64,000 nucleotides of DNA from Hyphomonas adhaerens MHS-3 (GTDB lineage Bacteria > Pseudomonadota > Alphaproteobacteria > Caulobacterales > Hyphomonadaceae): the NCBI RefSeq assembly GCF_000685235.1, contig NZ_ARYH01000001.1:1240001-1304000 (forward strand), written 5' to 3'. The notes below the pieces were generated by a model. That model was not told the origin of the DNA. It was given only the letters and a program-made list of their open reading frames with translations, and ran no database searches. Positions 9,231 to 40,700 of this stretch are shown here, one piece after another; the stretch's first letter is position 1; each line of letters begins with the position of its first letter. A program made the translations under genes and the position numbers.

Positions 9231-10370
9231 ATGTCTTCGGCAATTCCGTTCGACGAGATCCAGCGCTGGACATTCGATGCCGCCCTGCCGTTGTGGGCGG
9301 AAGCCGGCTATGACCTGCAAAGCCAACGGTTTGTCGAGAAGCTGGATTATTCCGGAGAACCGATTGATGCGGGGTTCCACCGCACCCGCGTGACCGGACG
9401 GCAGACCTATGTGTTTTCCCACGCCGCGATTCTCGGCTGGGAGCAGGGCATGACCTTGTCGGCAGAGGGCGCTCGCCAGCTCGATGAGCTGTATCTGGGC
9501 CCCGAAAAGGGCTGGCCGCGAACCACAGACCGCGAAGGCGCCGTGCTGGACGGCACGCCGGACCTGTACGATCTGGCCTTCGTCCTGTTCGGCTATGCCT
9601 GGCGCCACAAGGCAGCGCGGGATCAGGAGTCCCGTGCGGGCATGCACCGCGCGATGGACTTCATCGACACGCATTTGCGGGCGGAAAACGGATTCTGGCA
9701 CGAATTACCGCCGGAAGGCTGGCGCCTGCAGAACCCGCACATGCACCTTCTGGAGGCCTCGCTCGTGTCCTACGAGGCCACGGGAGAGACGCGCTTCCTG
9801 GCAACGGCGCGAGAGCTGGTGACCCTGTTCCGCGACAAGCTTTTCGACGGCGCCACGCTGGCGGAGTATTTCGACGCTGACTGGAACCGTGCCGAGGGGC
9901 GTGATGGTCAACTGGTTGAGCCCGGCCATCAACTGGAATGGGCCTGGATTCTCGTCCAGTACGGCAAGCTGACGGGCGAGGATACGGTTGCGCTGGCAGA
10001 AGGTCTTGTCCGGTTCGCCGAGACCCATGGGGTCGATTCGCAGACGGGCCGGACGATGCAGGTCGTACTGGACGACGGGGCGGCAGTTGATGCCGGGGCG
10101 CGGACCTGGCCGAATACGGAGCGGATCAAGGCCCATCTCGCCCTGTTTGAAGCAACGGGACAGGATCCGCGCGCCGCCGTTGCAGCGAGCTCACGCCTGT
10201 TGCTGGATCAGTATCTCAACACGCCAATACCGGGTCTGTGGCTGGAGCGATTCACAGCGGATGGTGAGCCGGACGCCGATGATGTGCCGGCATCGACCCT
10301 TTACCATGTCTTTCTGGCGTTCACCGAAGTACTGCGTCTGCAGGAAAAAATCGAAGCCTTGGGACGCTGA
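9231..10370 (+). CDS. AGE-family sugar epimerase/isomerase
   Basis: A 379-residue alpha/alpha-barrel protein of the N-acylglucosamine 2-epimerase family. Family signatures: RVTGRQTYVFSHA near residue 45, NPHMHLLEA, EPGHQLEWAWIL and RTWPNTERIKA, which carry the barrel-lining Arg, His and Glu residues; the C-terminal STLYHVFLAF completes it. Many bacterial members isomerise mannose and fructose or their 6-phosphates, which would feed GDP-sugar synthesis in this locus. The ATG at 9231 is chosen because GGAGGTAAGA lies directly upstream; the frame is open from a GTG at 9219, which would place the ribosome site inside the gene. Confidence 0.82.
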   Translation: MSSAIPFDEIQRWTFDAALPLWAEAGYDLQSQRFVEKLDYSGEPIDAGFHRTRVTGRQTYVFSHAAILGWEQGMTLSAEGARQLDELYLGPEKGWPRTTDREGAVLDGTPDLYDLAFVLFGYAWRHKAARDQESRAGMHRAMDFIDTHLRAENGFWHELPPEGWRLQNPHMHLLEASLVSYEATGETRFLATARELVTLFRDKLFDGATLAEYFDADWNRAEGRDGQLVEPGHQLEWAWILVQYGKLTGEDTVALAEGLVRFAETHGVDSQTGRTMQVVLDDGAAVDAGARTWPNTERIKAHLALFEATGQDPRAAVAASSRLLLDQYLNTPIPGLWLERFTADGEPDADDVPASTLYHVFLAFTEVLRLQEKIEALGR

Positions 10371-10542
10371 ACCTGCTGTATATTCAACGGAACTGATGTG
10401 CCGCCGCCACGTTCAGCGGCAATATGGCGGCCCGCTGGCTGTCTCAATCCTGAGCAGGCCTGGAAATTCGCGAGGAAATTTGCCTCCGGAGGTTGGGTCT
10501 CATGGCGGAGCGGCCTACATGAGACTTAACAGGAAAGAACCG

Positions 10543-11964
10543 ATGACAAGCGCAGAGGCAGACACTTCGGCCAGGACGTCCGGGCGTCTGGTCGCCATTT
10601 CCAACCGGACTGCCGCCGGCAGTGAGAGCAAGGCAGGCGGGCTCGCCGTGGCCCTCTGGGAAACCCTGGTGGAGACCAAAGGCCTGTGGATTGGCTGGTC
10701 TGGCCGGGTGCTCGACTTTGAAACGGCACGGGTCAATTATGTCGAGGAAGAGGGGGTTCAGTTTGCCCTCAGTGATCTTTCCCGCCGGCAATATGACGGT
10801 TTCTATCTCGCCTACGCCAATTCTGTGCTCTGGCCGGTCATGCACAACCGGATCGACCTGGCGGTCTTCGAAGCCGATACTTACCGCAACTACCGGTCCG
10901 TGAATGAGAAGTTTGCCCGGATTGCGGTTCAGGAAGCCCGGCAGGAAGACTTTATCTGGGTGCATGATTATCACTTCTTTCTGCTCGGGCGGATGATGCG
11001 CCAGCGTGGCTGGCAGGGCCGCCTTGGCTGGTTTCTGCATATTCCGTTTCCCGCGCCGGACGCCTTCCGGGCGATCCCGCAGCACCGGGAACTGGGCGAA
11101 GCCATGTGCGCCTATGACGTGGTGGGCGTTCAGACCGGCAAGGACCTCTACAATCTCGCCCGCTACCTCGAAGAAGAGTTCGATGCGGAAGAATTGCCGG
11201 ATGGCCGGTTCAAGGTAGGGGAGCGAACTGTCCGCCTGCTGCATTGCCCGATCGGGATTGATGTCGATGCCTTCGTGAAAGCCTCCACCTGTGAAGACGC
11301 GCAGCTGGCCGCGTCGAAGCTCGACAGATTTCTGGGGAACCGTCAGCTGGTGCTCGGCGTCGACCGGATGGATTATTCCAAAGGCCTGATCCAGCGCTTC
11401 GAAGGCATGGCAGACCTTTTTGACCGGCACCCGGATGTGCATGGGCACATATCCTTTACCCAGATCGCACCGCCCTCGCGGACGGTTGTCGAAGGCTACC
11501 AGCAACTTCGCCAGCAGCTGGACGAACTGTCCGGCCGGATCAATGGCGACTATGGAGACCTGGACTGGATTCCCATTCGCTATCTGGCACGCGGGTATGA
11601 CCGGGACGAGATTGCAGGCCTCTATCGTGCCGCGAAAGTATGCCTTGTCACGCCCTTGCAGGACGGGATGAATCTCGTCGCCAAGGAATTTATCGCGGCA
11701 CAGAACCCGGACGATCCGGGGGTATTGGTCCTGTCACAGTTTGCGGGCGCCGCCGAGCAAATGAATGAAGCCCTGATCGTCAATCCGTATGACGCTGGCG
11801 CAATTGCCGAAGCCGTTTATCAGGCTATTCATATGCCGCTGGCGGAACGGCAGGCCCGCTGGCGCAGCTTGATGGATGGCATCCGGTCGCAGGACCTGGT
11901 CTGGTGGAGGCAACGTTTCCTCAACGCCGTTCCCGCAGATGCAGAGGTGCCAGTACTTTCATGA
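10543..11964 (+). CDS. otsA: Alpha,alpha-trehalose-phosphate synthase (GT20)
   Basis: A 473-residue retaining GT-B enzyme that joins UDP-glucose (or another NDP-glucose) and glucose 6-phosphate into trehalose 6-phosphate. Seen: AISNRTAAG with the KAGGLAVAL loop, WVHDYHFFLLG, FLHIPFPAPDAFR, GVDRMDYSKGL and DGMNLVAKEF, all GT20 landmarks in the right order. Start at 10543 is chosen for the AGGAAAG upstream; an in-frame ATG at 10519 is possible. The frame is open far upstream into the isomerase gene but that part is not coding. Overlaps otsB by ATGA. The 172 bases before it probably hold a promoter. Confidence 0.93.
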   Translation: MTSAEADTSARTSGRLVAISNRTAAGSESKAGGLAVALWETLVETKGLWIGWSGRVLDFETARVNYVEEEGVQFALSDLSRRQYDGFYLAYANSVLWPVMHNRIDLAVFEADTYRNYRSVNEKFARIAVQEARQEDFIWVHDYHFFLLGRMMRQRGWQGRLGWFLHIPFPAPDAFRAIPQHRELGEAMCAYDVVGVQTGKDLYNLARYLEEEFDAEELPDGRFKVGERTVRLLHCPIGIDVDAFVKASTCEDAQLAASKLDRFLGNRQLVLGVDRMDYSKGLIQRFEGMADLFDRHPDVHGHISFTQIAPPSRTVVEGYQQLRQQLDELSGRINGDYGDLDWIPIRYLARGYDRDEIAGLYRAAKVCLVTPLQDGMNLVAKEFIAAQNPDDPGVLVLSQFAGAAEQMNEALIVNPYDAGAIAEAVYQAIHMPLAERQARWRSLMDGIRSQDLVWWRQRFLNAVPADAEVPVLS

Positions 11965-25091: not shown

Positions 25092-25712
25092 CTACTCCTT
25101 ATTGGAGGACTTCCGGACGTCTTCGTTCAGGGCGGCGAGACGCAAGCTGACGGCATATGCCTTCTTGGTCTCCATGCCGGCAAGGATCATACCCGCCTGT
25201 TCCGAGCGCATCAGGCGCAGGAAGCCGGCCGCAAAGTCGGAATCCATCTGGTTGAAGATAGACGCCGCCTGATCCGGTTTCATGGTGCCATACATGCGCG
25301 CAAGATGGTCCATATCATCATTGGAGGCATCCTGAAGCTGGCCCCAGCGGTCCTGCAATGTGGCTTCCACCGCCTTGAGATCGGACGCGCGCCGGTCAAG
25401 TTCTTGCTGGCGGGCGAGCAGTTCCAATTCCAGTTCCTGAAGGGCAGCCTGTTGTTCTTTCAGCTTTTTCTGGTCATCCGCCAGAAGTGCAGCTGTCTCA
25501 GCCGTAAAGCAGACCTGGTCGACCTGTTTGGCGCCTGGCGCGATGGAGGACGGCGCCGGAGTCTGATCTGCTGATTCCGCGGGGTGGGACGGTTTCTGCG
25601 GGCTTTCCGCAATCGCCAGATTGCTGGGCAGAAACCTGACGGCGGCACCCAGCGTGAACAGGAATCCCAGCGTGAGCAGGACATAGGATCGGCTGTTGGT
25701 GAGGGACTTCAT
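25092..25712 (-). CDS. MotE-like flagellar protein (MgtE N-domain-like)
   Basis: A 206-residue protein with an N-terminal membrane helix (about 10-27, VLLTLGFLFTLGAAVRFL), a Pro-rich linker, a long coiled coil (about 80-125, rich in Q, E, L and K) and a C-terminal helical domain (MYGTMKPDQAASIFNQM to about 195) that resembles the MgtE N-terminal domain found in MotE. In rhizobia MotE is a periplasmic chaperone of MotC. Here it follows fliL and a DUF6468-like gene in one minus-strand unit. The ATG at 25712 is preferred to an upstream TTG at 25721. Confidence 0.75.
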   Translation of the reverse strand: MKSLTNSRSYVLLTLGFLFTLGAAVRFLPSNLAIAESPQKPSHPAESADQTPAPSSIAPGAKQVDQVCFTAETAALLADDQKKLKEQQAALQELELELLARQQELDRRASDLKAVEATLQDRWGQLQDASNDDMDHLARMYGTMKPDQAASIFNQMDSDFAAGFLRLMRSEQAGMILAGMETKKAYAVSLRLAALNEDVRKSSNKE

Positions 25713-25742
25713 GGCAGGCAACCTGTTCCGTTTTCTGCGAGG

Positions 25743-26207
25743 TCAGCGCCCGGTGGTCTGGGCGAGGGGGCGATAGTCTTCGTCGGCGGCTTCTGTCATT
25801 TCACGCATGTCCTGCATGACCCGGTTCATCTCCATGATCCGTGTCTTTGACTGATCCAGGATGATCCGCATCATCGTGCTGAGCTCGGCTTGAGATGCGG
25901 TGACCTGGTCGACCGCATCCTTCTGCGTAGCTTCCAATGACGCTTTCAGTTCTTCCAGGCGCGCGCATGTCTGTTTTGCGTCTTCCAGATGGGTTCCGAG
26001 ACGCGCGGCCATTTCGCCGACATGCGAACGCGTCTCCTTTGTCGAGCTGGACATGGCAGCAACGGATTTGGACATGGCCATGATCGTCGCGCCGAGGCCG
26101 TCGCGTGTATCCTGTAGCGCCTTCAGGCGGCGGTTCAGTACGAAACAGTAAGCGCACGCGGCAAATGACACGAGGATGATGGCGATGTCCGTGGCTTGAA
26201 TAGGCAT
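25743..26207 (-). CDS. Bitopic coiled-coil protein, DUF6468-like, flagellar cluster
   Basis: A 154-residue protein: one N-terminal membrane helix (about 7-25, IAIILVSFAACAYCFVL) and then a cytoplasmic, mostly helical coiled coil to about residue 140. It resembles DUF6468 proteins found next to fliL in polar-flagellated alphaproteobacteria. The Caulobacter flagellar placement factor PflI is also a bitopic protein encoded among early flagellar genes, so a related role is possible but not shown. The ATG at 26207 is chosen for GAGGTGA 6 bases upstream; it starts 5 bases after the fliL stop. Confidence 0.65.
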   Translation of the reverse strand: MPIQATDIAIILVSFAACAYCFVLNRRLKALQDTRDGLGATIMAMSKSVAAMSSSTKETRSHVGEMAARLGTHLEDAKQTCARLEELKASLEATQKDAVDQVTASQAELSTMMRIILDQSKTRIMEMNRVMQDMREMTEAADEDYRPLAQTTGR

Positions 26208-26212
26208 AGGGC

Positions 26213-26737
26213 TCACCTCAACAGGAATTCTGTGATCAGGACGCCTTGGGAGACGCCTCCGCCGAGCACCAGTTCGGATCGGCGGCTCAATTGTTCGCGC
26301 ATGTGGGCGTAAAAATCGGGATTCTCGAAGTCGCTGAGTTCGACCGAGCGCAGGTAGTTGGTAAATGCATCGATCAGCACAGGCTCGGCCTTCTCAACCA
26401 TGCCAGTGCTGCCATTACCGGTGACGATCGACACCTTCATCTTCAGGTAGCGTGTCGCTGGCTCGCTTCCGATCGTGATGAGTATGTCCTGCAATTCGAC
26501 ATATGACTGGTCTTGCTGCGCGATGGGCTCAACGGATGGGCCCGTTTCAACCACCGGGCACGCCGGTCCGGTCGGCGGGTCCGAAGCCAATACATATACG
26601 GTCGCGAAAGAGCTGGTCATGGCGCCCACAGCAAGAATTGCCAGGCCGACGAAACCGCCGCCCGACTTCTTTTCGCTGGTCTGATCGCCGCCGTCCGCGG
26701 CCTGATCGCCAGCTTTCGCAGCACCTTTTTTGGCCAT
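26213..26737 (-). CDS. fliL: Flagellar basal body-associated protein FliL
   Basis: A 174-residue inner-membrane protein: a lysine-rich cytoplasmic N-terminus, one membrane helix at about 30-50 (FVGLAILAVGAMTSSFATVYVL) and a periplasmic FliL domain (SYVELQDILITIGSEPATRYLKMKV region through the FLLR end). FliL rings surround the stator units and support torque. First gene of the minus-strand fliL/DUF6468/motE-like unit, divergent from fliF across 128 bases. A second FliL-like protein is encoded at 43384. Confidence 0.85.
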   Translation of the reverse strand: MAKKGAAKAGDQAADGGDQTSEKKSGGGFVGLAILAVGAMTSSFATVYVLASDPPTGPACPVVETGPSVEPIAQQDQSYVELQDILITIGSEPATRYLKMKVSIVTGNGSTGMVEKAEPVLIDAFTNYLRSVELSDFENPDFYAHMREQLSRRSELVLGGGVSQGVLITEFLLR

Positions 26738-28377: not shown

Positions 28378-28975
28378 CGCGCTTCTTTCCAATTTGCCGC
28401 GATTTGACCGGGATGATCAGACCCATCCCGCCGAGCAGCTGAAACGCATGCTGGGTCAGATGCAGGCGGCGGCTGCGCGGCCTACTGCCACCACGTCACA
28501 GCCGGAGACGCCGCCTGAAGAAGAGGAAGAAGCCTCTTCATCGGAAGATATCGGGCCGCGGCTCGCTGAAGTCGAAAGTCTGATTAATCAGCTTTCGTCC
28601 ACGCTGGTCCGGATTGAAGGCGAAGCGCGCGATCATTCGGTGCAGGTGACCCAGGCACTTGCTGCACGCCTGTTTCCTGAATTGTCGCGACAGTTTCTGG
28701 CCGATGAAATCGCCCGGCACCTTCCTGACCTTGTCCCCGCGTCGGTGCCGACGCTGGAAATCCGTGCGCAGCAGGAAATGCTGGATAAGCTGGACCCCAT
28801 TATTGCCCGTGAGTCGTCACTGGCCGGGCGTTGTAAACTGGTGCCTGCAGAAACTGCGGGCGAGCCTCGCGTTCTGGTCTCATGGAAGACCGGCGGCGTG
28901 ACATTCGATTTCGAGGGCCTGCTGGCAGCGTGCCTCGCCCATCTGGACCCCTCCCACACAATGATTGAGGAGTAG
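28370..28975 (+). CDS. fliH: FliH-like flagellar export regulator (FlbE-type)
   Basis: A 201-residue protein between fliF and fliN. Residues 30-60 are Pro/Thr/Glu-rich with a run of acidic residues (PPEEEEEASSSED); residues 65-110 can form a coiled coil; the C-terminal part (LVPASVPTLEIRAQQEMLDKL to VSWKTGGVTFDFEG) has the alternating pattern of FliH/FlbE C-domains. FliH dimers hold the export ATPase FliI and dock it to FliN. Identity rests mainly on position and general form, as FliH proteins diverge strongly. Four bases separate it from fliN. Confidence 0.65.
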   Translation: MSSALLSNLPRFDRDDQTHPAEQLKRMLGQMQAAAARPTATTSQPETPPEEEEEASSSEDIGPRLAEVESLINQLSSTLVRIEGEARDHSVQVTQALAARLFPELSRQFLADEIARHLPDLVPASVPTLEIRAQQEMLDKLDPIIARESSLAGRCKLVPAETAGEPRVLVSWKTGGVTFDFEGLLAACLAHLDPSHTMIEE

Positions 28976-28979
28976 ACTC

Positions 28980-29303
28980 ATGACCGCCCCTATGGAAGCC
29001 GAACCGAAACCTGCTGACGTCGAGCGCCGCGATCCGTCTACGGCGAACCAGCACCGGCGCACGATCTTCAGCGTTCCGGTTACTGTTACCGTTTCGATTG
29101 GACAGGCGCGCCTCAGCGTGTCCGAAATTCTCGATCTGCAGCCGGAGTCGATTGTTCCGCTGACGTCTCGCATCGAGGACCCGGTCGACCTGACGATCGA
29201 TAACAAGATCATCGCAAAGGGCGAGCTTGTCGAAACCGAAGACGGTTCGCTTGGCGTGAAAATCACGGAGATACCGGAGCAATCCTACGATGATCTGGGC
29301 TAG
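28980..29303 (+). CDS. fliN: Flagellar motor switch protein FliN
   Basis: A 107-residue FliN with a variable N-terminus (1-30) and a complete SpoA domain (VPVTVTVSIGQARLSVSEILDL to about 100). FliN sits at the base of the C-ring and helps both rotor switching and docking of the FliH-FliI complex. The SpoA core LQPESIVPLTSRIEDPVDL is close to consensus. The gene overlaps fliP by 14 bases. Confidence 0.92.
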   Translation: MTAPMEAEPKPADVERRDPSTANQHRRTIFSVPVTVTVSIGQARLSVSEILDLQPESIVPLTSRIEDPVDLTIDNKIIAKGELVETEDGSLGVKITEIPEQSYDDLG

Positions 29304-30075
29304 GGCAGGAGGCGTTTTCCTCCGCTTCAGCATTCTGATTATGTTCGCCGCGGTGGGCTTTTCGCTCGCCGCGCATGCGCAAGGTGCGCCGCAGCTCGAT
29401 CCGGTTCCCAGCCTGAATGATGTCCTGAACGGCAACGGGCAGGGTGGTCTCAGCCGCTCGGTGATCCAGCTGTTCCTGCTGGTTTCTGTGCTCAGCTTGG
29501 TGCCAGCCATTGCCATGATGGTGACGTGCCTGCCGTTCATGGTGATCGTATTCTCGTTCATGCGCCAGGCGGTCGGCGTTCAGCAGGCTCCGCCCAACAT
29601 GATGATCATGGCATTGGCCATGTTTCTGACCTTCTTTGTCATGGAGCCTGTTTTCACAAATGCCTGGGACAACGGCATTTCCCCCTACATGGATGGCGTG
29701 CTGACGGAAGAACAGGCCTGGGTCATGACGACAGATCCGTTCCGGACGTTCATGACCAACCGCACCGAGCCGGAAACCCTTTATGTGCTGAGTGACGCTC
29801 TGAACCGGCCGCTCGTCGAAGGGGAAGCCCCGTCCTTTCCGTTGCTCGCGACCGGCTTCATGCTGTCGGAAGTCAAACATGCTTTCCAGATCGGCTTTGT
29901 TATCTTTCTGCCTTTCATGGTGATCGATCTTGTCGTCGCCTCAGTGCTGATGGCGGTCGGGATGATGATGGTGCCGCCCACTGTCGTCTCTCTTCCATTC
30001 AAGCTTGGCTTTTTTGTTCTGGCGGATGGCTGGCTTAAGATTACAGAAGCCATTTTGCGCGGTTATGCAGGATGA
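29290..30075 (+). CDS. fliP: Flagellar export gate protein FliP
   Basis: A 261-residue core subunit of the flagellar type III export gate. A cleavable signal (about 1-31, ending AHAQ) is followed by four membrane helices, with the conserved blocks TCLPFMVIVFSFMRQAVGVQQAPPN (quoted in part), FLTFFVMEPVF and FKLGFFVLADGW. Three partner genes, fliQ, fliR and flhB, lie elsewhere in the window at 52503-56693. No fliO is seen. Starts inside fliN and overlaps fliG by ATGA. Confidence 0.95.
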   Translation: MIWARAGGVFLRFSILIMFAAVGFSLAAHAQGAPQLDPVPSLNDVLNGNGQGGLSRSVIQLFLLVSVLSLVPAIAMMVTCLPFMVIVFSFMRQAVGVQQAPPNMMIMALAMFLTFFVMEPVFTNAWDNGISPYMDGVLTEEQAWVMTTDPFRTFMTNRTEPETLYVLSDALNRPLVEGEAPSFPLLATGFMLSEVKHAFQIGFVIFLPFMVIDLVVASVLMAVGMMMVPPTVVSLPFKLGFFVLADGWLKITEAILRGYAG

Positions 30076-31187
30076 GTTCAGTCCGATCCGCCTCTAATGT
30101 CGAAAGCCTGCCAGCGCGCCGCGCGCAGAAGATGGGCGTGGCACCAGCACCGCAGCCGGTGCCGATCAGTTCTGCGCAACGCGCGGCAGTGATTATTGCC
30201 CTGTTGGGGGAAGGGGCGGCCAAGCCGATTGTCGACAAGCTCGACGATGCCGCGCTGGCCAAGGTCGCGGCCGCGCTTGAAAACCTCTCCATGCTGACGC
30301 GAGACGAGCTCATTGAGATCGTTATGGATTTCCTCAGCCGGTTGCGCAAAACAAATGGTGCACTGCGAGGTGGCCGGACGCGCGCGAAGGAAGTCTTGTC
30401 CGGAGTCGTGGACTCCGGGCGCCTCAGCCTGATTTTCAGCGATGACAGCCCGGAGACGGCGACCGATGAGGACGATGAGGAACTCAGCGTTTGGGAGCGT
30501 CTGGAACGCAGGGAGCCGAAGCAGATTGCAGCCTATCTGTCCCGCCTGTCTCCGAACCTGATTGCGCTAATCCTCCAGAAGCTGGACGTTTCCATTTCTT
30601 CCGAAGTGCTGGGTCACATGGAAGGCGACAAGCTGGGTCCGATGATCGGTCACATGGTTGAGCCGCGCAAGGCAGACCCCGGGGTCGACCAGGTGCTCGG
30701 CCGCATGGTCGAAATGGAGTTTCTCAACGCCGTCCAGGAAGAAGCTGAGGAGGGGGGAGAGAATCTCGCCTCCGTTGGAGAGCTGCTGAGCCTCATTTCC
30801 TCCGAAAAGCGTGACAGCCTGGTCGCCTTCCTGCGGTCCAAGCATGAGGACAAGCTGGAAGGGATCGAAAAGTCGATCTTCACGCTCGAAGGCTTGCCCG
30901 ACCTCTTGCCGAAAAATGCCGTACCGGTTGTCTTCCGGGAAGTCGATCAGTCTTTCCTGCTGAAGCTTCTCGGCACGTTGCAAGGGAGTAACAGCGCGGT
31001 ATCGGACTACCTGCTCGGCAACATCTCCTCGCGCATGGCAGATCAGTATCGCGACGACCTCAGCGGAATGCAGCCACTGGCGGCAGATGAAGCCGAGACA
31101 GTCCAGCGTGAGTTCCTGAATACTCTGATGGGCCTCAAGCGCCGTGGTCTGATTGTACTTGAGCGCAGTGCAGAAAAGGACGCCTGA
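30072..31187 (+). CDS. fliG: Flagellar motor switch protein FliG
   Basis: A 371-residue rotor protein. A non-conserved 30-residue head precedes the FliG N-domain (SSAQRAAVIIALLGEGAAKPI), the middle domain (KQIAAYLSRLSPNLIALILQKL region) and the C-terminal torque domain (LPDLLPKNAVPVVFREVDQ to KRRGLIVLER). It links FliF to FliM and faces the MotA stator. The middle segment around residues 115-140 is acidic (DDSPETATDEDDEELS) and longer than in enteric FliG. Last gene of the fliF unit; its stop codon is in the loop of a hairpin. Confidence 0.94.
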   Translation: MSSVRSASNVESLPARRAQKMGVAPAPQPVPISSAQRAAVIIALLGEGAAKPIVDKLDDAALAKVAAALENLSMLTRDELIEIVMDFLSRLRKTNGALRGGRTRAKEVLSGVVDSGRLSLIFSDDSPETATDEDDEELSVWERLERREPKQIAAYLSRLSPNLIALILQKLDVSISSEVLGHMEGDKLGPMIGHMVEPRKADPGVDQVLGRMVEMEFLNAVQEEAEEGGENLASVGELLSLISSEKRDSLVAFLRSKHEDKLEGIEKSIFTLEGLPDLLPKNAVPVVFREVDQSFLLKLLGTLQGSNSAVSDYLLGNISSRMADQYRDDLSGMQPLAADEAETVQREFLNTLMGLKRRGLIVLERSAEKDA

Positions 31188-36173: not shown

Positions 36174-36986
36174 TTATTGGGTCAGAATGGTAATCGAAAT
36201 CCGGCGGTTCTGGGGGGCCGCAGGGTCTTCGGGGATCAGGGGGTCGGAGGCGGCCTTTCCGGAAACTTCCCGGATGCGGTCAGCTGGCATGCCTGAACGG
36301 ACCAGGAGCCGCCGCGCGGTGTTGGCACGATCTGCGGACAAGTTCCAGTTATCGTAAATGCCGGCATTCCTATAGGTGCGATTGTCTGTATGTCCGACAA
36401 TCTTCACCTGGTTTTCAAAGCTGCCGAACGAGCCAGCAACTTGTCCCATGAGATCCGCCAGAAGCTCGGATGGATGGCTGGAGCCGACCGGGAAGAGTGG
36501 GGTTTTGGCCGAATCCGTGATCTCCACAACGATGCCTTCCGGCGACATCTTGATCAGCATGTGTTCTGAAATCTGATGACCGTCTTCAGTCAGGCCTTTT
36601 TTCAGGTCTTCAAGCTGTGCGGCAATGGCGCGTTCGTCTGTTTTGTCTTTCGTCCCGTGCGAGTCGATGGATTTCGACCGCGATGCGCCGGTTCCCATTT
36701 TCGCGTAGGTTTCTTCTGTAAAAATGGATGAGCCATTCAGGCCATCTGATCCGCCACCGGAAATGCGGCTGATCGGAATTGTCGGGTTGAAATAGTCGGC
36801 AATACCTTTGCGCTGTTCCTCTGTCGTGGCGTTGAGCAACCACATCAGAAGGAAGAACGCCATCATTGCGGTGACGAAGTCGGCATAAGCAACTTTCCAG
36901 GCACCACCATGGTGCCCGTCAGCTTTGACGACCTTCTTTCGCTTGATGATTGTCGTGTAGACGATTGGCTGTTGCTTGCTACTCAT
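36174..36986 (-). CDS. motB: Flagellar stator protein MotB
   Basis: A 270-residue stator subunit. A basic N-terminus (IIKRKKVVK) leads into the single membrane helix with the proton-carrying Asp (VAYADFVTAMMAFFLLMWLL, about 33-52), then a linker and an OmpA/MotB peptidoglycan-binding domain (VKIVGHTDNR at about 193 and LSADRANTARRLL). It is encoded on the opposite strand and about 1.1 kb from motA, with the FliM-like gene between them. The gap to the divergent gene carries TTAACC and GTTAAC boxes. Confidence 0.93.
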   Translation of the reverse strand: MSSKQQPIVYTTIIKRKKVVKADGHHGGAWKVAYADFVTAMMAFFLLMWLLNATTEEQRKGIADYFNPTIPISRISGGGSDGLNGSSIFTEETYAKMGTGASRSKSIDSHGTKDKTDERAIAAQLEDLKKGLTEDGHQISEHMLIKMSPEGIVVEITDSAKTPLFPVGSSHPSELLADLMGQVAGSFGSFENQVKIVGHTDNRTYRNAGIYDNWNLSADRANTARRLLVRSGMPADRIREVSGKAASDPLIPEDPAAPQNRRISITILTQ

Positions 36987-37149
36987 TAACCCTAACCATT
37001 TGAGGCAGTAGGGGCTTTCTACCAGACAGCCGTGAAGGAACGCTGCGGAGCCGATGGTTAACTTGCCCCGGGCTGTTAATGGTTTTTCAACCGGTCACCC
37101 ACCATCACTGGTTAACGGGACGGTACGTTTTTTTAATAGGTGGCAAACT

Positions 37150-38043
37150 GTGTCTGCAGTTCTGCGGAAAAAGATCGACGCTGGGGCGGGCATTCCTCCC
37201 AGCATAATGCAACTGCAGCATTTCTGGCTGCAGTTGCAGGCCTGCACCCAGGATTGGGCGGCAGACACCTATGGTATACGACCGGAAGTTTCGCTCGCCA
37301 GCCGCCGGGTTGTGAACGGCCAAGAGGCCCAGCAGAAGCTGGAAGCGGAAAGCGGCTTCTACTATTCCGCGGCAACTTCACCAGGGCTGGCCGGGATTGC
37401 ATTGGACGCGGCCGGATCCATCCGCAATGCGGCCGTCCGGATGAATCAGGATATTGAGAGTCTTGGCGATGCCTCGCCGCTCTTTCTGAAATTGCTCGCT
37501 GAGCAGGCCGGGCTGGAACTCTGTCATCAGGTCACAGCCGACCTGTTCGATGCGGAAGAGGGGGCGTCCTCGGCGCCAGATCCGAGCGGTGCCGCAGGTC
37601 GTTTCGAGACATCCAGTCGATACCTGTTGTTGGAATACCGGCTCCAGATGGATGATGAAGTGTCCAGCGTTTGGTTCGCGTATTTCTTTGAATTCATACA
37701 ACAATACGTAATTTCAAGTCAGCGGGCCGCTTCTGACCGGAAGGGGCAAGGCAGGCACCAGAGCCAAAGATCGCTGAACAACAGCATCCTGGCATCCACA
37801 ACGATGCTGGACGCTGTGCTGGACCGCCTGTCTCTGACAATTGGTGAATGCGCCAAGCTGGAAGTCGGCACCGTGTTGCCGCTCGCTGGCGCGGATGGGG
37901 GGCGGCTATCGCTGTCCGCAGATACGATCAATGGGTGTGTCGATATCGGTACCGGTGAATTGGGCGTCTGGAAACGTCAGAGGGCTTTGAAGCTGAAGAC
38001 GCCGATTTCGAAAACCTTTGCGCAGGAAATCGTGGATTCATAG
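37150..38043 (+). CDS. Divergent SpoA-domain motor switch protein (FliM-like)
   Basis: A 297-residue protein at a motor locus (beside motB and motA). The C-terminal 85 residues form a SpoA (FliM/FliN C-ring) domain: LDRLSLTIGECAKLEVGTVLPL, then the small-loop ADGGRLSLSADTINGCVDIGTGELGVW (in part). The middle (about 60-190) may be a CheC-like domain as in FliM. The FliM N-terminal CheY-binding peptide and the FliG-contact GGxG loop are not seen. The start is GTG at 37150, with AGGTGG 6 bases upstream; the frame is open to 37054. Most likely a strongly altered FliM. Confidence 0.65.
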   Translation: MSAVLRKKIDAGAGIPPSIMQLQHFWLQLQACTQDWAADTYGIRPEVSLASRRVVNGQEAQQKLEAESGFYYSAATSPGLAGIALDAAGSIRNAAVRMNQDIESLGDASPLFLKLLAEQAGLELCHQVTADLFDAEEGASSAPDPSGAAGRFETSSRYLLLEYRLQMDDEVSSVWFAYFFEFIQQYVISSQRAASDRKGQGRHQSQRSLNNSILASTTMLDAVLDRLSLTIGECAKLEVGTVLPLAGADGGRLSLSADTINGCVDIGTGELGVWKRQRALKLKTPISKTFAQEIVDS

Positions 38044-38082: not shown

Positions 38083-38949
38083 GTGAATGCAATTATAGGG
38101 ATGCTGGTGACGGTTGCCATGGTGTTTGGTGGCTACCTTCTGGCCGGCGGCAAGATGGAAATTATCACTCATGCTCTTCCTTTCGAGGGCATGATGATCG
38201 GGGGCGCAGCGCTGGGTGCTTTCCTGGCGGCCAACGATTTGACGACCATCAAGCACACGGTCGGCGACATTGCGTCGGTTTTCAAAGGGCCGAAATGGAA
38301 AAAACAGGACTATCAGGATCTCTTGTGCCTGATGCATGAGTTGTTGAACGTGCTCAAGCAGAACCCGGTAGATATTGAACCGCATATTGAAGCACCGAAC
38401 GAGTCCGATATTTTTGCCAAATATCCGAAGATCCTGAAGGATCACTCTGCGGTCGAGATGATCTGCGATACCATCCGCTCGATGATCATGAACTTCGATA
38501 ATGTTCATCAGGTGGAGGAGTTGCTGGAAGCACAGCTCGAAGGCCTGCAGGAAGACAGCCTGCACGGTGCTCATGCCCTTCAGAATATGGCAGACGCGCT
38601 ACCGGCGCTGGGGATCGTTGCGGCTGTCCTTGGTGTGATCAAGACAATGGCCGCAATTGACAAGCCGCCGGAAATTCTGGGCGGAATGATCGGCGGCGCT
38701 CTGGTCGGGACCTTTCTTGGCGTGTTTCTCGCTTACGGAATCGTTGGTCCGTTTGCCAACAAGGTGAAGCACAATCGTACGGAAGAACATTTCTTCTACG
38801 CGACGATTGGCGGTCTCCTTGTCTCCAACCTGCACCACAACCCGGTCAACATTTCGGTTGAGGTGGCTCGCCGTCATGCCCCGGCACGGGTTCGTCCGAC
38901 TTTCGACGATGTCGAGCAGGCAATTCGGGAGCTTAAAAAGGCAGCATGA
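38083..38949 (+). CDS. motA: Flagellar stator protein MotA
   Basis: A 288-residue stator subunit with four membrane helices: two near the N-terminus (IIGMLVTVAMVFGGYLLAGG and the MIGGAALGAFLA segment) and two after residue 165 (LPALGIVAAVLGVIKTMA and MIGGALVGTFLGVFLAYGIVG), separated by a cytoplasmic loop that contacts FliG. The PALGIVAAVLGVIKTM stretch with its conserved Pro is diagnostic. GTG start with GAGGGGAG just upstream. Overlaps the next gene by ATGA. Confidence 0.95.
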   Translation: MNAIIGMLVTVAMVFGGYLLAGGKMEIITHALPFEGMMIGGAALGAFLAANDLTTIKHTVGDIASVFKGPKWKKQDYQDLLCLMHELLNVLKQNPVDIEPHIEAPNESDIFAKYPKILKDHSAVEMICDTIRSMIMNFDNVHQVEELLEAQLEGLQEDSLHGAHALQNMADALPALGIVAAVLGVIKTMAAIDKPPEILGGMIGGALVGTFLGVFLAYGIVGPFANKVKHNRTEEHFFYATIGGLLVSNLHHNPVNISVEVARRHAPARVRPTFDDVEQAIRELKKAA

Positions 38950-40700
38950 AGCGGCTTTGCCTCCTCCTTCTGCTCAGCAGCTTACTCGCGCCAGCTTCGC
39001 TCGCGCTTGATGACACTGATGCTGTATCCGGACCGGAAGCGGGGCAGCCAACTCAGCTTGCGAACGAACTCGATCAGTTCGTTCGCGATGCCATTGACGA
39101 GGGCCTGCTGACCCCGACAGGGGAGGCGGAACCGGAAATGGACGACAGTGTGGCGCAGGATAGCCTGCCCACGGGTGTGCGTATGAGGCAGGCGGCGCCT
39201 TTCCCGGTGGAAGTAGACTGTGAAGGGCCTTATCCACTCGATTTTGATGCGTTTGAGCGGTTCGACCGCTATCAGCAAATCTACACGTTCCAGGAGAACG
39301 TGTCCGGGCTGCCCGGCGACGCGCCTGGGTTGGACGGTATACAGCTCGCAAAAGCCTATTTGGCGCTTGGGCTCTATTCTGAATCCGGTATGGTCTTGAA
39401 GTCGGCATCCGGACCGGTCGCAGCGGCATACCGCAAGGTTGCGAGCCTGATGGAAAACCGGTCGGCCGCAGATGTGGACTATTTCCGCAAACTGGCGGAG
39501 TGCCGCCCGGAGGCGGGCGTCTGGCTTGGAGCTGCGCTGCTGGCAAACGATCAGGACGCGGGCGTTCAGACATTCAGCGAAAACCTGAACGGCTTCCGGA
39601 AATTGCCGTTCCGGCTGCGTGCGGACCTTGCCGCAATAGTCGTACCGCAGCTCGACAAGCGCGGAGAACGTATTCTTCCGGTCAAACTCCTGGCTGATTT
39701 TACACCGGATCAGGTGAAGGAGGCGTCGCAGCTACAATTCGTCAAAGCCATCATCGACCTTGGAGAAAACCGCCCGGACGCGGACAAGTCTGTGCGGGCC
39801 TTCCTCAGTGAACCCCTGTTTCAGGAGCAGGCGCTTGCAGTGCTTATGCGACACAACAAGCCCCTGAGCGAATTGCATGAGGAAATCCTGCTGGGGGAAC
39901 TGATGAAAAAGTTCGGTCAGACCGGCAATGATCGGGAGCTTGCAGCCAGCCTCCAATATGCATTGCAGGAACTGAGTGGCAGCTCGCACTATCAGCCAAT
40001 CCTGGAACTTTCTGGGATGCCGGCGTTGCAGAACCCGGCAGCCCAAAAGGAGATCCGCCGCCAATTCATTGGCGGACTGGAACGCGACCTGGCCAGCGAT
40101 AACCGGCTCCGCAACCTGGCGGCAATCAATGCGCTGGTCTCCGACCCCGGCATTCTTGAGGCGGCGCCTGAGCGTACACAGCTTTATCGGTCGGGCGCCT
40201 CTCTGGCGGTGCGCTTTGGTCTTGTTTCTCTGACCCGGGTATTGATGCGGCGGGATGAGGCGGACGATGAAGTCATTGCGGAATTGGCGGGTCTTGAGTT
40301 CAGAAGCGGTGACTTTGACGCCGTGACAAACTGGGCCCAGGCTTACCCTGATAACGCACCTCTCAATCTTCTGGCCGCAGAAAGTGCGATCCGGAAGGGA
40401 GATGCCGCCGGCCTGCATGTGTACGAACAGAGGCTGGATCTGAAACCGGAAACCGTTCTGGCTCTCATAGAGCTTGATGCGGCGTCCGGTCGTTGGCTGG
40501 TTTCGGATGCGATCTACGACGCGGCCGCGCGCCTGACTGATCCTGTGCAAAAGCAGCGTGCGGAGAGGGTGTTCGCCATGCGTGAGACCGCAAAGGATCT
40601 GGCGATGCCGGTACGGCCCAAGGTCGCAATGGCGAAGGTCGCATCTGTTCTCGGCAAATCAGATCTTTCTTCAGAACAAGTCACCGGAGGCGCGCACTAA
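38946..40700 (+). CDS. Exported protein of unknown function in the motA-flgF operon
   Basis: A 584-residue protein that I cannot assign to a family. It has a signal peptide (residues 1-21, MKRLCLLLLLSSLLAPASLA) and no further membrane helix. From about residue 95 the sequence is mostly helical with Ala/Leu-spaced segments that could be TPR- or Sel1-like repeats (QLAKAYLALGLYSESGMVLK is the clearest). It overlaps motA upstream by 4 bases and flgF downstream by one base (TAATG), so it is coupled to flagellar genes on both sides; a periplasmic role in stator or rod assembly is inferred. Confidence 0.8.
   Translation: MKRLCLLLLLSSLLAPASLALDDTDAVSGPEAGQPTQLANELDQFVRDAIDEGLLTPTGEAEPEMDDSVAQDSLPTGVRMRQAAPFPVEVDCEGPYPLDFDAFERFDRYQQIYTFQENVSGLPGDAPGLDGIQLAKAYLALGLYSESGMVLKSASGPVAAAYRKVASLMENRSAADVDYFRKLAECRPEAGVWLGAALLANDQDAGVQTFSENLNGFRKLPFRLRADLAAIVVPQLDKRGERILPVKLLADFTPDQVKEASQLQFVKAIIDLGENRPDADKSVRAFLSEPLFQEQALAVLMRHNKPLSELHEEILLGELMKKFGQTGNDRELAASLQYALQELSGSSHYQPILELSGMPALQNPAAQKEIRRQFIGGLERDLASDNRLRNLAAINALVSDPGILEAAPERTQLYRSGASLAVRFGLVSLTRVLMRRDEADDEVIAELAGLEFRSGDFDAVTNWAQAYPDNAPLNLLAAESAIRKGDAAGLHVYEQRLDLKPETVLALIELDAASGRWLVSDAIYDAAARLTDPVQKQRAERVFAMRETAKDLAMPVRPKVAMAKVASVLGKSDLSSEQVTGGAH

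Follow-up and report, generated by a model that had tools for sequence, protein, structure and literature searches.

A probable, divergent FliM of a fla1-type flagellum in Hyphomonas adhaerens, and a second set of switch genes in the same genome

Two features usually identify FliM: the CheY peptide and the GGxG contact to FliG. In a flagellar island of Hyphomonas adhaerens MHS-3, a gene flanked by motB and motA codes for a protein that ends in a SpoA domain, and a preliminary description of the sequence saw neither feature in it. Is this the FliM of the flagellum, or an extra part of the C-ring? We analysed the window (the whole stretch of 64,000 nucleotides; positions refer to it unless a contig is named) together with the rest of the genome and related genomes. 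Judging from sequence and a predicted model, the protein very probably works as FliM, and we consider it likely that the fla1-type flagellum of the window is the one it serves. The genome also keeps a second set of switch and stator genes, apparently remnants of an older flagellum (Table 1).

Table 1. Features of the window and of the second rotor and stator set
Feature	Position	Strand	Basis
Probable fla1-type FliM (297 aa, GTG start)	37150..38043	+	Open reading frame with conserved start; predicted FliM middle-domain fold; SpoA
N-terminal peptide, residues 1-17, MSAVLRKKIDAGAGIPP	37150..37200	+	9 of 17 columns of family alignment A2 invariant or nearly so; low-confidence model helix at residues 3-11
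FliM-type middle domain (predicted), residues 14-190	37189..37719	+	Z 15.0 against 4fhr_A, model residues 14-189
SpoA domain, residues 219-286	37804..38007	+	PF01052, 25.5 bits
motB	36174..36986	-	PF13677, 71.7 bits; PF00691, 45.7 bits
motA	38083..38949	+	PF20560, 116.8 bits
MotK/CP4-like gene	38946..40700	+	Position only, directly 3' of motA; no match in Pfam or NCBIfam
Island FliG, divergent, LSPN at EHPQ position	30072..31187	+	FliG_N, FliG_M and FliG_C matches; alignment
Island FliN	28965..29303	+	PF01052, 69.8 bits
FliF, only one found in genome	26866..28377	+	PF01514
MotE/FlbB-like gene	25092..25721	-	NF047368, 37 bits, below cut-off of 110
CP2-like gene, by position	25743..26216	-	DUF6468, 29.7 bits, cut-off 26.9
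FliG'-FliH'-FliN'	C1:1600790-1602404 (L025 15791 to L026 405)		No FliF or FlhA of its own
FliM', 367 aa	C1:291492-292595 (L027 10493-11596)		SpoA; LSPAEIEALL
Second MotA (MotA')	C1:594827-595720 (L184 4828-5721)		

Gene start, domains and predicted fold

The coordinates agree with the placement between motB and motA given in the preliminary description, and AGGTGG stands 5' of the GTG, as expected for the start with a ribosome site that it had proposed. A start peptide of the same kind opens all 32 rows of the family alignment (A2: the window sequence plus all 31 loci of a contig scan), and a wrong start or an annotation error was rejected on this ground; at 15 of 20 loci no frame extends more than two codons upstream. 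The setting is equally constant: motA is the next gene downstream in 31 of 31 loci and a divergent motB lies upstream in 30, the contig at the remaining one (L077) starting with the gene. The titles of these loci are mostly Hyphomonas or Hyphomonadaceae, with one Henriciella. Three contigs titled Acidobacteria or Sulfopaludibacter (L079, L085, L094) carry a Hyphomonas-type island, and their titles are probably misassigned. A tblastn search for plasmid relatives of the window protein found none at E 0.01.

SpoA is the sole Pfam match of the protein and lies at its C-terminal end, as the preliminary description had it; the score barely exceeds the cut-off of 23.8 bits, a weak but real match, and all 32 family members match PF01052. 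The Pfam FliM family (PF02154) has no match in the protein, TIGR01397 scores 16.7 bits against a cut-off of 219.6, below the FliM family threshold, and no family model gives it the name FliM. The two missing motifs are indeed missing. EIxxLL, the core of the N-terminal LSQxEIDxLL peptide of FliM, occurs in 0 of 32 family rows, GGxG at residues 60-160 in one, and GG within the aligned stretch 85-120 in two. Because both are missing across the relatives, these absences are family traits; and since the peptide, the loop and the family models all fail to identify the protein, we class it as a FliM variant and not as a standard FliM.

The absence of both motifs was right, but the wider claim that FliM hallmarks are lacking altogether was not, as the middle domain has the FliM fold in a predicted model. 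This model was built with AlphaFold2 from the 32-row alignment (mean pLDDT 69.3); pLDDT is 75-94 at residues 21-130, about 50 at 131-150 and 83-94 at 151-190, and low at both ends (42 for residues 1-10 and 30-56 from residue 201), so that the SpoA part is of low confidence. With VIA-align, the model reaches Z 15.0 against Thermotoga maritima FliM (4fhr_A; rmsd 3.5 for 172 residues at 9% identity), Z 14.7 against 2hp7 and Z 12.9-13.8 against the FliM chains of C-ring structures. FliY (4hyn_B), CheC (1xkr) and CheX (1xko_B), which share the CheC-type fold, reach Z 13.2, 10.6 and 10.5, and the SpoA part of the model reaches Z 3.9 against a FliM-FliN fusion. Foldseek ranks 1-7 are all C-ring or motor chains (E 6e-8 to 4e-7), with a whole-model TM of 0.41-0.45 and an rmsd of about 15, which indicates that the domains are not placed alike in the model and in the matched chains. 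With FliM (T. maritima 4fhr/2hp7; C-ring 8umd, 8vib) the protein thus shares the order of parts (N-terminal peptide, CheC-like middle domain, SpoA), the predicted fold and the flagellar gene setting; it differs from the standard form in lacking EIDxLL and GGxG, in scoring below the family cut-offs and in the changed motif of its partner FliG. A FliY-type phosphatase was considered and rejected: the active-site motif of FliY and CheC, [DS]xxxExx[NH], occurs in one of the 32 rows, probably by chance, and that row is not the window sequence.

A profile comparison adds a sequence link. A FliM frame was recovered at 15 of 18 loci. Against 15 ordinary alphaproteobacterial FliM sequences, taken from loci with a clean frame (A4), residues 160-296 matched with 94.9% probability (E 4.8e-8). 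Another profile (A1) drew on 18 of the 23 hits in the genus and on a single hit apiece in genomes G039 and G040, leaving out L018 and L020, whose starts are unclear, and three hits without a locus. Searched against 289 genomes of the class, it matched 29 besides the window's own, all confined to profile positions 159-298; the frame read at these loci was FliM or FliM-like in 19 and antisense or spurious in 10. The FliM fold of the middle domain was invisible to sequence searches, and the one match of a sequence-profile search of the PDB, Sec9 at E 0.15, was taken as chance. The window protein is related to FliM, with a middle domain too far diverged for sequence methods to detect. Such divergence might also be expected of a decaying gene, or of a non-flagellar SpoA gene merely sitting in the island: identity to FliM is very low, and as little as 33-35% identity is left within the genus. 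We consider this very improbable, however, given purifying selection (dN/dS 0.07-0.15 in six pairs among four close relatives), the fixed place of the gene, its co-occurrence with the island FliG and the predicted FliM fold.

The island flagellum and its FliM candidates

The island has the layout of a fla1-type flagellum: motB-flgE-K-L-I run in reverse to fliF-H-N-P-G, and a MotK/CP4-like gene follows motA, a position described for motK/CP4 in PMC10954123 and PMC12363192. It also holds fliL with the CP2-like and MotE-like genes, and no FliF or FlhA besides those of the island was found in the genome. Phaeobacter inhibens has a fla1 cluster of similar layout, with fliG apart (PMC12363192, Table 1), and Cereibacter sphaeroides has a motE-motA2-motK operon (PMC10954123); that the labels in these two papers name one flagellar type is our reading. 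For H. neptunium, CtrA sites are reported at a large majority of motility-island operons, as is a non-motile fliL deletion (PMC7200025), and the motor has been imaged (cited in PMC13023049). In the window, CtrA-like TTAA-N7-TTAA sites with at most one mismatch number seven against 2.8 expected, a weak excess that 2 of 100 shuffles reach; one lies at 37076-37090.

Is the window protein the only FliM? The preliminary description had posed this as a choice between an only FliM and an extra C-ring component, and had proposed a genome-wide search for another fliM. PF02154, which was positive in 4 of 14 control genomes, has no match anywhere in the genome; a FliM-like gene with a CheY peptide nevertheless exists outside the island (FliM', Table 1), so there is no clean either/or. 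SpoA proteins in the genome number four: the island FliN, the window protein, FliN' (C1:1602171) and FliM'.

The window gene is present in 23 of 25 genus genomes, the window's own included, and the same 23 carry the island FliG; one of them (G001, 84% complete) has no FliF hit. The remaining two, G017 and G021, lack hits to the gene, the island FliG and FliF alike. A single ancestral loss was rejected because the two belong to different clades, which leaves two separate losses or gaps in draft assemblies. In two genomes from other families of the order, G032 and G039 (completeness 100% and 99%), we found exactly two SpoA proteins each, an island-type FliN and a window-type protein, together with one FliF and one MotA each; there the window-type protein is the only FliM candidate found. 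In both, the gene adjoins a divergent motB, and in G039 motA comes next. Two observations speak against an island FliM: motA does not follow the gene in G032 and G040, and in G036, where FliG is of island type and a second FliF occurs, no SpoA hit could be assigned to an island FliM. That the gene tracks the island, and is the sole FliM candidate in G032 and G039, favours an island FliM over an additional part of the C-ring.

Some bacteria have FliY alongside FliM, and a comparable arrangement here would make FliM' the working FliM, or a second FliM of the island motor, with the window protein as an accessory SpoA protein. FliM', FliG' and FliN' occur in 25 of 25 genus genomes, including the two without FliF and island FliG hits, and are under purifying selection in the pairs tested; FliM' and FliG' are still present alongside the window FliM and could join the ring, and there are known cases of rings with mixed SpoA proteins (PMC7693769). 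Nonetheless, we consider an extra or mixed ring of this kind unlikely, as no FliM' accompanies the island flagellum in G032 and G039, FliM' is present in G017 and G021, where neither the island FliG nor FliF gave a hit, and FliM' is encoded away from the island genes. A mixed ring is possible in Hyphomonas.

If the window protein is the FliM of its island, it hints at the form that FliM may take in fla1-type flagella. In the part consulted, the 2025 fla1 study (PMC12363192) does not name a FliM, and the word occurs once (main text, reference list). Among titles and abstract openings, a coverage with few subscription journals, we found no published description of this FliM or of the retained set. 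Two other members of the class, G062 and G290, have a fla1 layout like the window's and each encodes an orphan SpoA protein (L125 8902-10188; L126 9591-10703) that is a candidate FliM of its fla1 flagellum. These orphans share with the window protein the SpoA domain and an N-terminal S-x-[IL]-L-[KR]-[RK] (SILKRK or STILRRM near the start), but lie away from motA and motB and are about 15-19% identical to it; both follow the same gene run of an XRE-like regulator, a response regulator and a sensor-kinase-like gene. Their placement recalls Roseibacterium elongatum, whose fliM lies outside the flagellar cluster (PMC4149021), a likeness drawn from description and not from sequence. A further FliM-like protein, encoded on the minus strand of L127 in G097 (within 9340-11391), combines LRRK close to the N-terminus with a middle domain of more ordinary type, and may be an intermediate.

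An apparently rebuilt switch interface

Where the CheY peptide would stand, the family has a conserved peptide, MSxVLRKKI, of the form M-S-x-[VI]-L-[RQ]-[RK]-K across the 32 relatives; the exceptions are L092, with P and H, and L082, with KMM. CheW, which was positive in 7 of 14 control genomes, was found in 2 of 25 genus genomes, and the search returned none in the window's own genome or in G032, G039 and G040. With no CheW found, the motor of H. adhaerens is probably not switched by CheA-CheY; such switching is unlikely in this species, and for most of the genus the lack of a CheY peptide is consistent with a motor that works without CheA-CheY. The absence of CheW alone does not explain the loss, because five genomes of the order with an ordinary FliG (G025, G028, G029, G031, G037) also lack CheW, and the FliM read in three of these is an ordinary one with EIDSLL. 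One genus genome, G023, has che genes directly beside the island flhB (L190 8023-14828; CheA and CheW from the family search, the others named by sequence reading), and another, G007, has a partial CheW hit near a contig end.

The peptide could instead be a docking site peculiar to this lineage, for CheY or something CheY-like, with the switch input kept in a new form. In position and form it matches the CheY peptide of FliM, being modelled with low confidence as a short helix ahead of the middle domain; SILKRK, STILRRM, SNILRRKI or LRRK occur in related FliM-like proteins, and G023, with the island and che genes beside flhB, reads MSTVLRKKI. However, it also stands in all 17 N-termini read from the 21 genus island genomes without CheW, and it is basic, unlike the acidic LSQxEIDxLL. 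We regard a kept input as rather doubtful, although it would be compatible with the window protein being the island FliM.

The other side of the interface has changed as well. In known structures the GGxG of FliM meets the EHPQ of FliG, and the two co-evolve (PMC7355467). FliG was recovered at 28 of 31 loci, and in these and the window (29 of 29) the EHPQ position reads [LM]-[STP]-P-N, keeping the P and changing the other three positions; the window's own FliG aligns with LSPN there. By comparison, four other FliG of the order have EHPQ or EYPQ, and the island-type FliG of G040, G039 and G032 have QRPQ, QKTQ and ERMP. The FliM-FliG contact thus appears, from these alignments, to have been rebuilt on both sides, with GGxG lost and EHPQ replaced by L-S-P-N. 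A FliM that has kept its fold and lost both motifs, facing a FliG whose motif has moved, offers a natural test of how far a switch interface can drift. As the island FliM, the window protein would most likely form the middle tier of the C-ring, its CheC-like middle domain meeting FliG and its SpoA domain pairing with the island FliN. Such a motor may turn one way, or may be tuned at MSxVLRKKI by another input, the nature of which is a guess.

A second rotor and stator set

More surprising than the FliM variant is the retained spare switch set. FliG'-FliH'-FliN', FliM' and the second MotA are apparently remnants of an older flagellum. At 1.60 Mb the gene order is SciP, fliG', fliH', fliN', flhF, flhG, ctrA, and in G026 it is SciP, fliF, fliG, fliH, fliN, flbD, flhA, flhF, flhG; the former is thus the latter minus fliF, flbD and flhA (SciP, FlhG, CtrA and FlbD were named from sequence reading, FlhF by its SRP54 match). 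In G015 and G021, flhF and flhG do not follow fliN'.

The set is kept. The reading frame of FliG' is open in all 20 cases examined, with FliG_M and FliG_C complete and FliG_N matched at positions 4-59 of 104 only; in four aligned copies its contact motifs are EHPQ, QHPQ, ERAQ and ERAA. For FliG', FliH' and FliN' together, dN/dS is 0.05-0.17 over the 15 pairs computed, and 0.12 between G017 and its flagellate sister G020; for FliM' it is 0.10-0.16 in six close pairs and 0.32-0.42 in three distant ones. Like the window FliM, FliM' has a SpoA domain, is diverged and lacks a PF02154 match, and a tblastn search at E 0.01 found no plasmid relatives of it. It is differently degraded, however: it lies apart from the island genes and keeps both LSPAEIEALL, with EIxxLL in all nine copies read, and a CGGGG stretch. 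In Caulobacter this FliM peptide is a docking site for c-di-GMP-bound Cle proteins as well (PMC5677366). By analogy, FliM', which keeps that peptide, might be a receiver of Cle-type input.

What use is a switch and stator without a flagellar base of its own? Tentatively, we suggest that the fla1 island works with a re-engineered, probably CheY-independent FliM-FliG switch, and that the old FliG' (with a shortened FliF-binding domain), FliM' (with a CheY/Cle peptide), FliN', FliH' and MotA' are under selection as a working complex lacking its own MS-ring, either as a second, exchangeable switch or as a non-flagellar machine; we hold this to be possible, though less probable than not. Among six genus genomes searched, the second, older-type MotA was found in the four with the island (G000, G003, G007, G023), and it is the sole MotA in G017 and G021. 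A further SpoA arrangement was seen in G038 (C18:10569-18048), where two SpoA stretches lie next to each other and FliF/YscJ is matched a second time in a genome with one FliG, perhaps marking a non-flagellar secretion system.
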